From a virus: a stretch of 23,566 nt of DNA. Positions 811 through 7,455 of the stretch are shown in pieces (the stretch's first letter is position 1; each line of letters starts with the position of its first letter). The DNA lies in IMG/VR virus record IMGVR_UViG_3300042328_000348, positions 1 through 23,566 of that record; one strand, given 5' to 3'. The position numbers were made by a program, and so were the translations under genes. Under the pieces are notes generated by a model, which saw only the letters and a list, made by a program, of their open reading frames with translations, was not told the DNA's origin and made no database searches.

Positions 811-3690
811 ATGGCAAATTCAAACAGAGTATTCGTTTCTCCAGGTGTCTACACATCTGAGAAGGATCTAACATTCGTGGCTCAAAGTGTCGGAGTAACA
901 ACATTGGGATTAGTAGGTGAAACCTTAAAAGGTCCAGCTTTCGAACCAATTTTAGTAGGAGACTTCGACGAATTCAAAACATACTTTGGCGGTACCTCTC
1001 CAGAAAAATATGGAGACGGATCTAATAACCCAAAATATGAGTTACCTTACGTAGCTAAATCTTATTTACAAGAGTCAAACCAATTATTCGTAACAAGAGT
1101 ACTTGGATTGACTGGATATAAAGCAGGTAAAACATTCGCAATAAAAACATTAGGTGGTATTTCACCAACAGGTGCTACTTGGGATTCAAGTTATAGTACG
1201 TCTGGAAGTACTACTATGTCCGCAACGACCGCAACAATTACCGGAAGTACAATATATGGTGAGTTATCAGGTAAAACTTCAACAGAAGGAGTATCAATAA
1301 CAAGTTATATAGTATCAAATTTTAGTGGTTTTACAACTACAGATGATGGTAAATGGTTTACAATTGGTTTAATGCCTTCAGGTGTAACACTACCTAGTAC
1401 AACATTAGAAGTGGTTTCACCTTTAACAGGTAAGGTATACAGTGAAACACCTAATAATAAAGAATGGTACAATACTTTCTTTAATTCAGGTGCAACAATT
1501 AATCAACTTTATTCATATAAATTTGCTTGGAATTCAGGTACTACTAGATTTGATGTTGTAAAATACACATTTGGTGCTGAGGTTAATACCGATTATGATA
1601 GTATATCTGTGGCAACATTAAGATCAAGAGGTCGTTATGCTTCAGAGATATTAACTTATGAAGTTACGGGCACCACACAAGTTTCATTGGCTGAAGTTAC
1701 AGATATTGAATTAAATCCATTGGGTGAATTTCAAATTAATGTTACAGGATTAACAGGAGGTGCAAAATCATTCAATTGTACTTTAGATACAACGTCAACA
1801 AAATACATTAAAAAAGTATTAGGTTCTGATGTATTTGATAAGTCATATGAAGATTTTCCTCTTTATGTTTATGAATCTTATCCTAACTTAGTTAAATCCG
1901 CTTATGAAAGAGGATTGATTAGAGGTTTAAGTACAACTAAAGTTTTTAATGATGAAGGTTCTAACTTTTTAGGTCAATGGTCAACATCTTTATCTCCAAT
2001 GGTGGTTTCAGAAGTTCGTGGTGGAAAAGTTTCAGATTTATTTGAAGTAATAACAATTTCAGACGGTGAAGGTTCTAACTACCAAGTTAAAATAACAATC
2101 CAAAACATTAATTTAGATTCAGGTGAATTTGACATTGTTGTTCGTGATTTTAACGATACTGATGACAATATGGTTGTTCTTGAAAAATATTCAAGATGTT
2201 CTATGAATCCTGACATGCCAGGTTTTGTTGGTAGAAAAATAGGTACCGCCGATGGTGAGTACGAATTACGTTCAAAATATATAATGTTATCTTTAGCTGA
2301 TAATCATCCATCGGATGCATTCCCTGCAGGATTTAAAGGATTTGTCAATAATGCAAACTTTAGTGGAACAACATTAGGTAGTGTAATTTATAAAACTGAA
2401 TATATCGACGCTGGTGATGTAGTAACATATAACGCAGATGGTACTGAAAATATTGAGTCGGGTGACAAGGTAAAGAAAGTAATGTTAGGATTATCGTCAC
2501 AAGTTGGATTTGATAAGGATTTATTTAAATATAAAGGTACAAGTGGTACAACTGAAACTTTCGGATTCCACTTATCTGTTAATGCTACCGATATTACAGG
2601 AACCACATACCAATGTACACCTTACGATTTAGAAGGTATAACGAAAGGAGCGTTAGAAAATATTGCATATCGTAAATTTACATTTGCAACATGTGGAGGT
2701 ACAGATGGTTGGGATATCTATAGAACGTCAAGAACCAACACCGACGGTTATATATTTGGTAAAACAACTTACAACAATAATAAAACAACCGGTGCGTATA
2801 GTGGGGTGTTTAACGTTGATAATGGAAACTCTGACTATTATGCTTACTTAGATGCTATAAACACATTTGCTAACCCTGAAGCGGTTGATATTAACGTATT
2901 TGCTACTCCAGGTATTAACTTCCGTGATCACAGTTCTTTGGTTAATCAAGCAATTGATATGATTGAGAACGATAGAGCAGATTCATTATACATTATGAAC
3001 TCTCCTAACATTACGGGAACAACCGCAGCGGCTGACGTTGTTGGTGAATTAGATACAGTATCTATCGATTCTAACTATTCGGCAACATATTGGCCTTGGA
3101 TTCAAGTAAGAGATACGGATAATGCAACTCAATTATATATTCCACCAACAGGTGAGGTATTAAAGAATATCGCATTAACTGACAATGTTTCTTATCCTTG
3201 GTTCGCAGTTGCGGGTTATTCAAGAGGTTTGGTAAACGCTATTAAAGCAACCAAAAAATTAACTTTAGACGAAAGAGATGAATTATATAAGAATAGAATC
3301 AACCCAATTGCAACTTTCTCTGATACAGGTACAATTATTTGGGGTAACAAAACACTTCAAGTAAGAGAATCTGCATTGGATAGAATCAACGTAAGAAGAT
3401 TATTATTGAGAGCAAGAAAATTAATTTCAGCAGTTGCGGTAAGATTGTTATTTGAACAAAATGACGAGCAAGTAAGACAAGAGTTCTTAAGATTGGTTAA
3501 CCCTATCTTGGATTCAATTAAAAAGGAAAGAGGTTTGTACGAATTCAAAGTTACTGTTTCTAGTGACCCAGAAGATATTGATGCAAACACATTGAGAGGT
3601 AAAATTTATATTAAACCTACTCGTTCTCTTGAATTTATTGATGTTGAATTTGTAATCACTCCAACAGGAGCCTCATTTGAGAATATCTAA
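811..3690 (+). CDS. Tail sheath protein (T4 gp18-like)
   Basis: The protein forms the contractile sheath around the tail tube. The N-terminus (SPGVYTSEKDLTFV, then TTLGLVGETLKGPAFEP) is the classic sheath start, in which an 'sPGVYt.E' segment is followed by an early beta region. The last 200 residues (NRINPIATFSDTGTIIWGNKTL, then NVRRLLLRARKLISAVAV and a final ITPTGASFENI) match the conserved sheath C-terminal domain that interlocks subunits. At 959 aa it is much longer than T4 gp18 (about 660 aa). The extra length lies mainly between residues 120 and 620, where Ser/Thr/Gly-rich, beta-looking sequence suggests inserted surface domains. The ATG at 811 follows an A-rich leader without a Shine-Dalgarno sequence. 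The gene has its own upstream motif (766-773) and a strong terminator directly after it, so it is probably expressed as a single, highly transcribed unit. Confidence 0.95.
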   Translation: MANSNRVFVSPGVYTSEKDLTFVAQSVGVTTLGLVGETLKGPAFEPILVGDFDEFKTYFGGTSPEKYGDGSNNPKYELPYVAKSYLQESNQLFVTRVLGLTGYKAGKTFAIKTLGGISPTGATWDSSYSTSGSTTMSATTATITGSTIYGELSGKTSTEGVSITSYIVSNFSGFTTTDDGKWFTIGLMPSGVTLPSTTLEVVSPLTGKVYSETPNNKEWYNTFFNSGATINQLYSYKFAWNSGTTRFDVVKYTFGAEVNTDYDSISVATLRSRGRYASEILTYEVTGTTQVSLAEVTDIELNPLGEFQINVTGLTGGAKSFNCTLDTTSTKYIKKVLGSDVFDKSYEDFPLYVYESYPNLVKSAYERGLIRGLSTTKVFNDEGSNFLGQWSTSLSPMVVSEVRGGKVSDLFEVITISDGEGSNYQVKITIQNINLDSGEFDIVVRDFNDTDDNMVVLEKYSRCSMNPDMPGFVGRKIGTADGEYELRSKYIMLSLADNHPSDAFPAGFKGFVNNANFSGTTLGSVIYKTEYIDAGDVVTYNADGTENIESGDKVKKVMLGLSSQVGFDKDLFKYKGTSGTTETFGFHLSVNATDITGTTYQCTPYDLEGITKGALENIAYRKFTFATCGGTDGWDIYRTSRTNTDGYIFGKTTYNNNKTTGAYSGVFNVDNGNSDYYAYLDAINTFANPEAVDINVFATPGINFRDHSSLVNQAIDMIENDRADSLYIMNSPNITGTTAAADVVGELDTVSIDSNYSATYWPWIQVRDTDNATQLYIPPTGEVLKNIALTDNVSYPWFAVAGYSRGLVNAIKATKKLTLDERDELYKNRINPIATFSDTGTIIWGNKTLQVRESALDRINVRRLLLRARKLISAVAVRLLFEQNDEQVRQEFLRLVNPILDSIKKERGLYEFKVTVSSDPEDIDANTLRGKIYIKPTRSLEFIDVEFVITPTGASFENI

Positions 3691-4030: not shown

Positions 4031-4519
4031 ATGGCAGATTTACTAATGAAAATGCCGGTTCCCTACGAACCGAAAAGACAGAACAGATTTATTCTTAGAT
4101 TCCCTTCATCTTTGGGAATTAACGAATGGTATGTATCTTCAACAAAAAGACCTTCAGCTAAAATTAACTCAACAGAGATTCCTTTCTTGAATACTTCAAC
4201 TTATGTTGCTGGTAGATTCACTTGGGAAGAAATGAGTGTTACTTTTAAAGACCCGATTGGTCCTTCAGCTTCTCAAGCGTTAATGGAATGGTTCCGTTTA
4301 CATGCGGAATCAGTAACAGGTAGAATGGGATATGCTGCCGGATACAAAAAAGACATTGAACTTGAAATGCTTGACCCAACAGGAGTTGTTGTTGAAAAAT
4401 GGATTATCCAAGGTTGTTTCTTAACAAGTTTAAACTTTGGTGATTTAGATTACAACAACGATGCTTTAGCTCAAATTACTTGTAACTTGAGAATGGACCG
4501 TTGTATCCAAGTATACTAA
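4031..4519 (+). CDS. Tail tube protein (T4 gp19-like)
   Basis: The protein polymerises into the inner tube through which DNA passes. It is 162 aa, close to T4 gp19 (163 aa). Recognisable features are the start (MKMPVPYEPKRQNRFILRFP), the edge segment SSTKRPSAKINSTEIPFLN, a beta hairpin around FTWEEMSVTFKDPIG, and the closing strands GCFLTSLNFGDLDYNNDAL and ITCNLRMDRCIQVY. These follow the tube fold shared by T4 gp19 and type VI secretion Hcp. The gene stands alone between the spacer and a strong terminator and has its own upstream motif, as expected for a protein needed in many copies. The leader before the ATG (AACAAATACAAA) has no Shine-Dalgarno sequence. Confidence 0.95.
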   Translation: MADLLMKMPVPYEPKRQNRFILRFPSSLGINEWYVSSTKRPSAKINSTEIPFLNTSTYVAGRFTWEEMSVTFKDPIGPSASQALMEWFRLHAESVTGRMGYAAGYKKDIELEMLDPTGVVVEKWIIQGCFLTSLNFGDLDYNNDALAQITCNLRMDRCIQVY

Positions 4520-4632: not shown

Positions 4633-5382
4633 ATGGAAGAATTTAGAATTGACCCCAACATTGCTTATGACGTAGTTGAATTACCAAGTAGAGGTATTCA
4701 TTATACAAATAACAAAAAATCGGTAAGAATCGCATACTTAACCGCCGCAGATGAGAATATCTTATCATCCCCAAGTTTAATTGCAACTAATAAAGTTGTT
4801 GATGAATTACTAAAAAGAAAAATTTTAGATAAAGATTTACCTATCGATGATTTGGTTGAGGAGGATAGACAAGCGATTTTAATATTCTTAAGAAATACCT
4901 CATTTGGTAGTGATTATAAAGTTACATCAACAGACCCAAAAACAGGAGAACAGTTTGATTTTGAATTAGATTTATCAACAGTAAAAACAAAAGACTTTAA
5001 ATTAGTTGCAGATTCAAATGGTGAATATTCTTATTTCATGGAAAAATCAAAATTAGATATCACATTTAATTTTTTAAATAAGAAACAAGAAAAGGAAATA
5101 GACGCAATTAGAGATAGTTGGAACGGTAACGGAGTGGCTCCAATTATCACTAAACAACTTGAAATGATGATTAAATCGGTCGCGGGCAATAAAGACCTAA
5201 TGAATATTAGAAACTTTGTTGAGAACATGCCGATTAAGGACTCACAAGATTTTAGAAAATTTATCAACGAAAATAAACCGGGGTTAGACTTAACCCAAAC
5301 AGCAATCACCCCGTCAGGAGACACAATCCAAGTTGAAATTGGATTCGGGGTTGAGTTTTTTCGTCCTTTCTACGGATTATAA
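4633..5382 (+). CDS. Tail assembly chaperone, N-terminal part (T4 gp26-like, TAC-N)
   Basis: This 249-aa protein resembles the T4 gp26 family. It was long called a baseplate hub subunit, but published comparative work has reinterpreted T4 gp26 and gp51 as tail assembly chaperones. Such chaperones bind the tape measure protein during tail assembly. Visible features are the opening (DVVELPSRGIHYTNNK, then VRIAYLTAADENIL), which is the typical 'LPSrG..Y.......v.v..lta.dE.iL' start of phage tail chaperones, and a helical C-terminal half (NKKQEKEIDAIRDSW). Its place between the tube and tape measure genes is the standard chaperone position. The C-terminus overlaps, in another frame, a short open frame that looks like the matching C-terminal domain. 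A TACTTATA element lies at 4611-4618. Family assignment is good; the binding role is inferred from family and position. Confidence 0.8.
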   Translation: MEEFRIDPNIAYDVVELPSRGIHYTNNKKSVRIAYLTAADENILSSPSLIATNKVVDELLKRKILDKDLPIDDLVEEDRQAILIFLRNTSFGSDYKVTSTDPKTGEQFDFELDLSTVKTKDFKLVADSNGEYSYFMEKSKLDITFNFLNKKQEKEIDAIRDSWNGNGVAPIITKQLEMMIKSVAGNKDLMNIRNFVENMPIKDSQDFRKFINENKPGLDLTQTAITPSGDTIQVEIGFGVEFFRPFYGL

Positions 5383-5515
5383 AAAGGGACAGTTAGACGA
5401 GATTTTATTTTTAGTTAAAAGAGGATTCTCATATGGAGATATCCTTTCTATGCCCGTCTATATCAGACGTTATTATATACAATATTTAATATCATTAGAA
5501 AATGGAAATAATTAA
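5333..5515 (+). CDS. Tail assembly chaperone, C-terminal extension (T4 gp51-like, TAC-C), reached by frameshift
   Basis: This frame is shifted +1 against the preceding chaperone gene. It is open from 5294 (just after a TAA at 5291-5293) to a TAA at 5513-5515, and overlaps the upstream gene up to its stop at 5382. The overlap contains no ATG. The only possible starts are TTG codons at 5333, 5339 and 5351, and the first ATG (5450) would leave about 20 codons. The unique part reads DEILFLVKRGFSYGDILSMP and then YIRRYYIQYL. This matches the short helical C-terminal domain of phage chaperones, in which 'FSw.dv..MP...R.wy...l' is typical. I therefore read it as the C-terminal half of a fusion of about 293 aa with the upstream protein, not a separate gene. 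Independent initiation at a TTG cannot be excluded. Confidence 0.7.
   Translation: MKLDSGLSFFVLSTDYKKGQLDEILFLVKRGFSYGDILSMPVYIRRYYIQYLISLENGNN
5347..5362 (+). other. Candidate programmed frameshift site in the chaperone overlap
   Basis: In the upstream frame the bases read GGG GTT GAG TTT TTT CGT. At TTT C (5359-5362) a Phe tRNA could move +1 from TTT to TTC. At GGG G (5347-5350) a Gly tRNA could re-pair perfectly after a +1 move. The T6 run (5356-5361) would also allow a -2 shift, the mode reported for phage Mu. All three lead into the open C-terminal frame. Either +1 option gives about 293 aa and the -2 option one more. Which one operates cannot be told from sequence. Confidence 0.5.
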
Positions 5516-5532: not shown

Positions 5533-7455
5533 ATGGGATTATTAAGCAGAATACCTAGTGGAATTACAAATGAAAGCGCTTTCAAAATTGCGTTTGCCGA
5601 CGCGTATCAAAAAGAATTTGGTAAAGCATATAAGGGAGACATCTCCGATGGAGCATCATTAGCAGGTACATGGAAGTTATATAATGAAAAATTAGGTACA
5701 ACAAATACACCAATAACGGATACCAAACAAAATTTTGGAAATAAGGCTGTTGATTTTGTAAGAGGAACGATAGACACACAAAAAACACAATCATCACAAT
5801 ACGCCGAAGGTGAAATGTTTAGAATTAGTAATATGTTAGATATTATTAATAAAAAAGGACAGGTAACTGGAGGACTAATGGGGATGGCTAGTAGATTGGT
5901 TGAAGAAGTTGGTGGTGGAATAGCAACTCAATTAAAACAAGAAGCTCAATTAAGAACAGATATCAACGAAAAAGTTGGTATGCAAGGGGAACTTTCAAAA
6001 GGTCTAAGAGAAGAAATAATAGACGCATATCCATCAACACTTAGATTAGGATATGGGATGCAACAACTAACTGATATGATGACAAACATGATGTCAGAAT
6101 CGGGTAGATTTAATCTCATATCAAAAGAAACGATAGGTCAAGCGGCAGCAACCGCAAGGTCTTTTGTTGGAGATTTAAGTGAAATGGGTAGAGTATTTGG
6201 TCAATTTGAAAAAGTCGGTTTAGGTGCTTCAGACGCAACCAAGGCCATTGATACTGCTGGTAAATCTTCATTATCTTTAGGTTTGAATAGTAAAAAAACA
6301 ACACAAGATTTAAGAGACAATTTAGGAAAATTAAATGAATTTGGATTTGCAAATGGTGTACAAGGATTAAATAGAATGGTTCAAAAGGCCAATGAATTTA
6401 GAATAAGTATGGATTCTGTTTATCAGATTGCGGATAAAGTGTTTAGTCCTGAAGGTGCGTTAGAATTAAGTGCAAATTTATCGGTATTGGGAGGTGCTAT
6501 GGGTGACTTTGGTGACCCAATAAAATTAATGTACATGGCAACCAATAATGTGGAAGGATTACAAGACGCATTAATTGGTGCTGCGGGTTCATTAACCACA
6601 TATAATCAAGAACAAGGTAGATTTGAAATTACAGGTGTTAACCTAAGAAAGGCCAAAGCAATGGCAAGTGAATTGGGTATATCGTATCAAGAATTGGCTA
6701 AAGGTGCAATAGCGGCTTCAGAAAGAACTGCCGCTGCGAGTGCTTTAATGACAAGTGGATTAGTAATGGAAGATAAAGAAAGGGAATTCTTAACTAACTT
6801 ATCACAAATGAAAGATGGTAAAATGGTTATTGAAGTTCCTAAATCTTTAATGAGTGAATTAGGTGGACAAACAGAAGTTATTTTAGAAGATTTAACAAAT
6901 GCACAAAAAACTACATTATTAGCAAACCAAGCCGCATTTGAAAAAATGTCTACAGAAGACATTGCAAGAGGACAGTTAAGTGCTATGGAAAACATAGAAA
7001 GAGACATTGGATTCATGGCCGCCACAACAAGAGGTCGTGTAGTTAATATGGCTAAATCTGCAGCTGAAGCTGCTGGTTTAACAGGGGAAGACGCTCAAAA
7101 ATTTGTTAAAGAAACCGCAGATAATGTTTCAAAGGGTACGGTTCAAATGAGTGATAACTTTAATAAGTTGGTTGGTAATTACATTAGCGAACTTAAAGGT
7201 GAAAAACCAAAATCACAAGGTACCGCAACAACACAAACAAACGCAATGAATGTTGCAGAAGCGGAAAAGAAAGCTGCGGAAGCCAGACAAACTGCCACAA
7301 ATACCACATCAACAATTAGAAATGAATATGTTTTTCAAGCTAATGGACCTTTGGTTGATGGATGGTCAAGACAAATTATTAAGGACTCTAGTATAAAAGA
7401 TGATTTCATAAACACAGGTAATGATGAATACACAACACCACCAAAAACTAAATAA
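5533..7455 (+). CDS. Tape measure protein (T4 gp29 position and size)
   Basis: This 640-aa, mostly helical protein is rich in Ala, Gly, Met and Gln. It follows the tail chaperones directly, which is where the tape measure gene is found in nearly all long-tailed phages. T4 gp29 has 590 aa. Using the rule of about 0.15 nm per residue, a tail near 96 nm would be expected. Long amphipathic segments include residues about 100-215 (RISNMLDIINKKGQ onward) and 350-600. Ala-rich stretches such as AIAASERTAAASALMTSG resemble tape measure membrane or helical segments. The last 80 residues are Ala/Thr-rich and then polar. It spans the tail lumen during assembly and is probably released at infection. No enzymatic domain is visible. 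The ATG at 5533 is chosen because an ATG at 5528 leads to a stop after five codons. Confidence 0.82.
   Translation: MGLLSRIPSGITNESAFKIAFADAYQKEFGKAYKGDISDGASLAGTWKLYNEKLGTTNTPITDTKQNFGNKAVDFVRGTIDTQKTQSSQYAEGEMFRISNMLDIINKKGQVTGGLMGMASRLVEEVGGGIATQLKQEAQLRTDINEKVGMQGELSKGLREEIIDAYPSTLRLGYGMQQLTDMMTNMMSESGRFNLISKETIGQAAATARSFVGDLSEMGRVFGQFEKVGLGASDATKAIDTAGKSSLSLGLNSKKTTQDLRDNLGKLNEFGFANGVQGLNRMVQKANEFRISMDSVYQIADKVFSPEGALELSANLSVLGGAMGDFGDPIKLMYMATNNVEGLQDALIGAAGSLTTYNQEQGRFEITGVNLRKAKAMASELGISYQELAKGAIAASERTAAASALMTSGLVMEDKEREFLTNLSQMKDGKMVIEVPKSLMSELGGQTEVILEDLTNAQKTTLLANQAAFEKMSTEDIARGQLSAMENIERDIGFMAATTRGRVVNMAKSAAEAAGLTGEDAQKFVKETADNVSKGTVQMSDNFNKLVGNYISELKGEKPKSQGTATTQTNAMNVAEAEKKAAEARQTATNTTSTIRNEYVFQANGPLVDGWSRQIIKDSSIKDDFINTGNDEYTTPPKTK

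Follow-up and report, generated by a model that had tools for sequence, protein, structure and literature searches.

A candidate +1 frameshift at TTT_CGN in a gp26-like tail assembly chaperone gene of a T4-like virus and its relatives

Organization of the locus

The window, i.e., the whole stretch of DNA analyzed here, comprises all 23,566 bases of the IMG/VR virus record IMGVR_UViG_3300042328_000348 and carries T4-like late genes. The tail sheath gene (811–3690), itself a T4-like late gene, is followed by a gene for a gp19-like tail tube protein (4031–4519, plus strand; phrog_4542, E 3.3e-26), a gp26-like ORF (4633–5382, plus strand), and then large ORFs and replication genes. The gp26-like ORF encodes a predicted tail/hub assembly chaperone of 249 aa (assigned by PF12322, phrog_150, and an AlphaFold model, see below) and ends with the codons GGG GTT GAG TTT TTT CGT CCT TTC TAC GGA TTA TAA, the stop occupying 5380–5382. 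Its end is overlapped by a frame shifted by +1 (5294–5515), just as the preliminary description of this DNA had it. That description also held that the second frame lacks an upstream ATG, and, indeed, the first ATG (5450) already lies within the domain encoded by this frame (hereinafter, the extension), while among ATG, GTG, and TTG only TTG is found before it, at 5333, 5339, and 5351. Translation through TTTC yields 293 aa, in agreement with the length of about 293 aa estimated earlier for the fusion. The three proposed shift sites, TTT_C (5359–5362), GGG_G (5347–5350), and the T6 run (5356–5361), are all present in the window sequence.

The chaperone gene had been placed between the tube and tape measure genes. 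The tube gene is identified by its family match; the downstream neighbor (5533–7455, plus strand; 640 aa) is a candidate tape measure gene by position only. Its product has no match in Pfam and no convincing family match in PHROGs (best E 0.13), and is aligned with a part of the annotated tape measure protein of phage immuto at BLASTP E 0.022.

No tRNA genes were found in the window, and no Rfam family matched it at gathering scores. Known relatives infect Flavobacterium and Rhodothermus; our guess is a host among Bacteroidota and kin. A small minus-strand ORF (525–683), located ahead of the sheath gene, resembles Arc-like repressors (phrog_3180, E 2.3e-4). The sequence TATTTATA, whose reverse complement equals the T4 late promoter core, occurs at window positions 766, 3986, 5521, and 18363, all four copies being on the plus strand, 12–45 nt before ORF starts; four copies in the window, taken by themselves, do not exceed chance expectation, and in 62 relative loci 135 copies are on the same strand vs. 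14 on the opposite one.

Frame of the extension in relatives

Relatives were retrieved by queries with the chaperone and with the tube protein, and the best 80 loci were kept per query, the contigs being partly shared. Among 161 loci, 153 contain the chaperone with its stop codon, with 88 distinct junctions; 120 of the 153 entered the later sets, for which a complete start and an extension were required, and locus L137, with the stop one codon later, was omitted from these. The extension is in the +1 frame at 152 of the 153 loci, the remaining contig (L148) ending at the stop; a long form made by +1 shifting, as supposed in the preliminary description, fits the relatives examined. In the more distant group of immuto, a Flavobacterium phage (29% identity to the window protein), the +1 relation is seen in all 80 loci with a stop (62 distinct); one further locus of this group (L270), without the stop, is outside the 80. 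A pattern scan of IMG/VR with GGGGTNGARTTTTTTCGNCC yielded at least 120 stretches; among the 120 matches listed, the +1 extension spans at least 40 codons in 116 and is open to the contig end in the other four. All counts for relatives are non-independent, as the sequences are related.

The extension (5363–5515 on the plus strand with its stop; residues 244–293 of the long form) is a domain of 50 codons that lacks a conserved start. It evolves as a protein, since its median dN/dS is 0.16 (131 of 406 pairs within the dS limits, the other 275 outside), compared to 1.96 when this DNA is read in frame 0 (401 pairs). One contig, fetched twice (L007 and L086), has an extra stop inside the extension, near the contig end. 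The search of genome contigs produced one distant match, in a bacterial genome (L166), without an extension: it has TTT CGT at the gene end, but its +1 frame is only 12 codons long. In a further group of loci (L357–L436), the chaperone stop is two codons earlier in 48 of 73 distinct regions, and the A-site codon there is mostly CGG (34/48).

The slip site

Judged by the comparison of gene ends, the best +1 site is TTT_C at 5359–5362 (plus strand), i.e., the P-site Phe codon 243 and a skipped base, with CGT (5362–5364) in the A site. Among 60 distinct 75-nt gene ends, Phe TTT is followed by CGN in all 59 that are in register (CGC in 31, CGT in 23, CGA in 3, and CGG in 2), and in the sixtieth (L137) this string lies one codon farther 5′. 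Preceding it, in the E site, is TTT (58 of the 60 ends) or TTC (two ends); with TTC TTT CGN, only TTT_C remains as a +1 quartet, and a −2 shift is unlikely. In 20 of the 60 ends, the +1 frame contains TAG one codon before the two Phe codons; hence, in those ends the shift must fall after TAG, and GGG_G, two codons 5′ of it, is ruled out as the slip site there. Likewise, the 55 distinct immuto-group junctions (TTT CTT TGG, 27; TTT CTA TGG, 3; TTT CTT TAC, 1; TTT TTT TGG, 24) offer UUU_C or UUU_U. Thus, of the candidate sites listed earlier, TTT_C is retained, while GGG_G is set aside because of the +1 TAG, and the −2 shift on T6 because of TTC TTT CGN and TTT CTT or TTT CTA; the alignment of relatives, suggested as a check for a conserved slippery site, gives TTT_C as the conserved one in the window's group.

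TTT_CGN is largely excluded from ordinary genes and retained at the chaperone junction. Outside the junction (161 occurrences, set aside), TTT and TTC are found before CGN Arg codons 16 and 136 times, respectively (16/152), compared to 466 and 121 before AGA/AGG (466/587), and 537 and 653 before other codons starting with C (537/1190). The ORFs counted, 614 distinct ones of the window's group, were taken from both strands with a minimum length of 240 codons and without removal of shadow ORFs; the sequences being related, the counts are descriptive rather than a set of independent cases. In-frame TTT_CG is seen exactly once per gene in the 120 chaperone genes, which were preselected for one near the end.

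In the literature, UUU_CGN is described as the motif for +1 shifting in influenza PA-X and in amalgaviruses (PMC5052127), P-site slippage occurs on UUU_C within UUU_CGU (PMC3498833), and UUU_Ynn is especially prone to +1 shifts in bacteria (PMC5009743).

Upstream RNA stem

RNAalifold, run with no structure supplied, pairs GGGG with CCCC 34 nt upstream. The 5′ arm is ACCCCG (5308–5313) and the 3′ arm CGGGGT (5346–5351), both on the plus strand, the latter ending 7 nt before the P-site codon. This six-pair helix is formed in 97.4% of cells, with the inner pair being G-C in 20/38 and A-U in 13/38; an inner helix, AATCCAA/TTGGATT (5325–5331 with 5339–5345, plus strand), is paired in 84.2% of cells and has two pairs changed on both sides. 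The Gly239 codon is always GGG (46 of 46 pruned sequences), although GGG makes up 3.5% of Gly codons in the window; the invariance of this rare codon is explained by the pairing of GGGG with the conserved upstream CCCC. The latter is present in 119 of the 120 pattern loci among the matches listed, the search pattern itself not containing CCCC, and the third-base C is uncommon in the Ala/Thr codon at this place (GCC, 7.9% of Ala; ACC, 12% of Thr).

None of 500 shuffles reaches the covariation score of the six-pair helix or its share of paired cells; the number of pairs changed on both sides is matched by 443 and the number of pair types by all 500, so that these two show no excess. With the inner helix added, the same four figures are 0, 0, 92, and 292. 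The covariation of the stem comes mainly from one pair (column 18 with 51; 13/38 changed on both sides), as four of the six pairs are invariant and, hence, uninformative in this respect; RNAalifold credits covariation with only −0.61. For the fold as a whole, the z-score is −1.7, and 11 of 200 shuffles fold equally well. In the immuto group, GGG is not invariant and the upstream stem is not kept. In the window's group, the upstream stem probably stimulates the shift. Alternatively, GGGG may act as a Shine–Dalgarno-like stimulator, but pairing with the upstream CCCC accounts for both GGGG and CCCC.

A downstream stem, GTCCTTT/AAAGGGAC, is good in the window but not conserved among relatives, and was rejected. 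The loop of the upstream stem contains an almost invariant GGAGA (5317–5321; Gly GGA in 45/46, 48/48, and 24/24), which resembles the Shine–Dalgarno core but is located about 40 nt upstream of the slip site. The group split behind these counts and those for L357–L436 excludes one locus of a third type.

The chaperone family and T4 gp26 and gp51

The ORF at 4633–5382 had been called gp26-like, and it matches PF12322 (T4_baseplate, gp26/gp51) with E 1e-10 and 42.1 bits, passing the curated cut-off of 24.5, and phrog_150 with E 6.9e-14. PF12322 does not reach immuto or Mel-JY01; phrog_150 does. Alignments to phrog_150 cover positions 13–280 for T4 gp51, 14–235 for T4 gp26, 14–233 for the short form, and 14–264 for the long form, the latter gaining only 2.8 bits over the short form.

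The use of two separate genes, 26 and 51, in T4, mentioned in the preliminary description, agrees with the protein sequences: gp26 ends in ...GLKEFFELL, gp51 carries an additional C-terminal part absent from gp26, and no +1 or −1 domain is found 3′ of T4 gp26. This part of gp51 (218–245) is aligned with the extension at a moderate level (hhalign E 6e-4, probability 28%); the single T4 gp51 sequence against the extension profile gives E 0.12. The short-form profile against the gp51 alignment produced no useful alignment (E 0.23, in the wrong place). Comparison of extension profiles gives E 5e-8 for the window and immuto groups, 4e-11 for the −1 group (see below) and gp51, 2e-5 for the −1 and immuto groups, 2e-4 for the window and −1 groups, 3e-4 for the window group and gp51, and 2e-3 for the immuto group and gp51, with probabilities of 16 to 44% for the weaker matches. 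By these scores, the chain from the window via immuto and the cyanophages to gp51 is better supported than the direct step from the window to gp51. T4 gp51 appears to end in a domain like the extension, and gp26 appears to stop where the short form stops; by this correspondence, gp26 and gp51 look like a two-gene equivalent of the short and long forms. The KVP40 record already notes a small ORF as resembling 40 residues at the gp51 C-terminus, so that this link is known.

An AlphaFold model was made for the short form (pLDDT 87.7); among predicted structures, it matches baseplate-hub and hub-assembly proteins of phages, including that of SP-15. Foldseek of this model against the PDB gave no match at E ≤ 0.001 (1.3 and 3.1 were seen); a second PDB comparison gave the HK97 tail assembly chaperone 2ob9 with a middling score (Z 4.9, 83 of 107 residues, rmsd 4.0), the next hit having Z 2.1. 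By sequence, solved structures yielded chance-level matches only (best E 0.16).

Distant relatives with +1 and −1 layouts

The +1 layout at UUU_C or UUU_U is also found in immuto, SP-15, RM378, Mel-JY01, GXN1, and LR756508, and thus recurs in phages of Flavobacterium, Rhodothermus, Bacillus, and Microcystis. The junctions are TTT TTT CAC in SP-15, TTT TTT TGG in RM378 and Mel-JY01, TTT CTA in the megaphage LR756508, and TTC TTT CGT in GXN1; of the six records, only GXN1 has CGN in the A site, similar to the window's group. At the place of the extension, a small separate gene is annotated in immuto, Mel-JY01, RM378, and SP-15, and none in GXN1, while the LR756508 record is unannotated.

S-PM2, P-SSM2, KVP40, Cr30, phiW-14, and HTVC008M have one PF12322 match each, compared to two in T4, and in all six the extension is in the −1 frame after T_TTT_TTC or T_TTT_TTT. 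The only relative found with GXN1 as a query of viral contigs, L328, also has the extension at −1. A conserved start codon outside the overlap, named in the preliminary description as evidence against a fusion, is not seen in the +1 group; of the six −1 relatives, five (S-PM2, P-SSM2, KVP40, Cr30, and phiW-14) have an ATG that overlaps the chaperone stop or follows it by 2 nt, hence re-initiation is possible there. In HTVC008M and L328, no ATG is found near the chaperone stop. In the 595-kb phage record LR756511 (L331, 1501–2450), where the extension is likewise at −1, an ATG overlaps the chaperone stop, making it a possible re-initiation variant. In the S-PM2, P-SSM2, and KVP40 records the extension is annotated as a separate small gene, called gp51 or hub assembly catalyst, so the likeness had already been seen by the depositors; a frameshift is not mentioned in the portion examined of the notes to these three records.

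Proposed mechanism and alternative explanations

Given the conserved layout and slip site, we consider it highly probable that the gene is translated in two modes, yielding a short form and, by a +1 shift at TTT_C aided by the stem, a long form, with roles similar to those of G and GT. Most ribosomes would read to the TAA at 5380–5382, producing the 249-aa chaperone. When Phe-tRNA is on TTT (5359–5361) and the A site holds an Arg CGN codon, a minority would slip by one base onto TTC (5360–5362) and continue in the +1 frame to 5515, producing the 293-aa form with a C-terminal domain related to gp51. The stem (5308–5313 with 5346–5351) probably stimulates this step: its refolding behind the ribosome would pull the message and favor forward movement. 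The two forms may then act like lambda gpG and gpGT, both binding the tape measure protein, and the long form recruiting tube subunits.

The same frame is reached by −2 slippage on the T6 run, and TTTTTTCG is present in 58 of the 60 gene ends; phage Mu is a known −2 case (in the part of PMC3498833 consulted). This explanation is, however, quite improbable: TTC TTT CGN, found in two of the 60 ends and in GXN1, would re-pair badly after a −2 shift, and 31 of the 55 distinct immuto-group junctions have TTT CTT or TTT CTA. RNA polymerase slippage on T6, leaving a share of the mRNA one U short, would give an identical product from a run that is indeed present. We regard it as similarly improbable, as the run is reduced to three T in the relatives with TTC TTT CGN or TTT CTT, and it is the short TTT_CGN that is avoided elsewhere (long T runs being outside that count).

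The extension could also be a separate small protein started in or at the end of the chaperone gene, at a TTG or by re-initiation. The three TTGs in the window, the conserved GGAGA upstream, the ATG at or 2 nt after the stop in S-PM2, P-SSM2, KVP40, Cr30, and phiW-14, the distinct gene annotated in the first three of these, and the in-frame ATG 26, 50, and 56 nt before the stop in the +1 records LR756508, GXN1, and SP-15, respectively, agree with this; but in 20 of the 60 gene ends the +1 TAG lies 3′ of all upstream TTGs, 22 of 58 members lack all three of ATG, GTG, and TTG, and no start codon is common to the six +1 records, which makes a separate start very unlikely. Decay of the extension into a remnant, or a sequencing error at the frame break, has a negligible probability: the extra stop of L007/L086, close to the contig end, would agree with it, but the same +1 relation in other relatives and the dN/dS of 0.16 argue against both.

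Along with the +1 shift at TTT_C, a broader scheme may be envisaged, which has, in our estimate, an even chance of being correct. In it, one family would use several routes at the same position of the protein: two genes in T4; a +1 shift at UUU_C or UUU_U in the window's group and the six distant records; a −1 shift at U_UUU_UUC or U_UUU_UUU in HTVC008M, L328, and perhaps the cyanophages and KVP40; and, possibly, re-initiation. The window's group would combine UUU_CGN with a forward-pulling upstream stem, and gp26/gp51 would be the G/GT of T4. If gp26 and gp51 indeed correspond to the short and long forms, the T4 exception disappears and gp51 gains a testable role. The +1 shift itself would explain how relatives of T4 manage with a single gene where T4 has two. 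The site would be a natural use by a bacterial virus of UUU_CGN, which the literature consulted describes in eukaryotic viruses, and it offers more than a hundred natural variants for testing; the upstream stem would be a useful case for RNA-driven forward shifts.

Comparison with known systems

Similar to lambda gpG/gpGT, a single gene, lying between the tube gene and the place expected for the tape measure gene, would give a short form and one extended at the C-terminus; unlike lambda, where the shift is −1, the frame here is +1 at TTT_CGN, and the chaperone belongs to PF12322. A paper by Xu and others from 2004 is said to treat conserved tail frameshifts. According to PMC5009743, long-tailed phages widely conserve the G/GT scheme, T4 being the exception, and the frameshift in the tail chaperone of haloarchaeal myovirus HSTV-2 is “very likely +1”; gpGT of phage Mu is made by a −2 frameshift (PMC3498833, excerpt). 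Both shift to the same frame as the window's chaperone would; hence, a chaperone shift other than −1 is not new in itself.

The T4 pair shares with the window the PF12322 family; in addition, the C-terminal part of gp51 appears to resemble the extension, and gp26 appears to end where the short form does. It differs in being encoded by two separate genes rather than one. Another two-gene chaperonin, gp143/gp144 of 0305phi8-36, with short and long forms made without a frameshift, has been proposed as a G/GT equivalent, and the section on it does not mention T4 gp26/gp51 (PMC2147016); the proposed T4 pair is likened to it here. A partial literature search, mostly outside subscription journals, recognized no report of frameshifting in gp26/gp51 genes.

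The influenza PA-X and amalgavirus sites have, as here, UUU in the P site and CGN in the A site, and all four CGN codons occur both in the window's group and in amalgaviruses (PMC5052127, excerpt). These are, however, viruses of eukaryotes, the influenza E site is UCC compared to TTT or TTC here, and the upstream stem is a feature of the window's group; going by the codons, the window site would work like the influenza site and is not that cassette, as its E site lacks UCC. Tail chaperone frameshifts, a likely +1 shift in HSTV-2, and a two-gene form in print are thus already known; what differs in the present system is the UUU_CGN site, the upstream stem, and the proposed link that would make T4 gp26/gp51 the same system.
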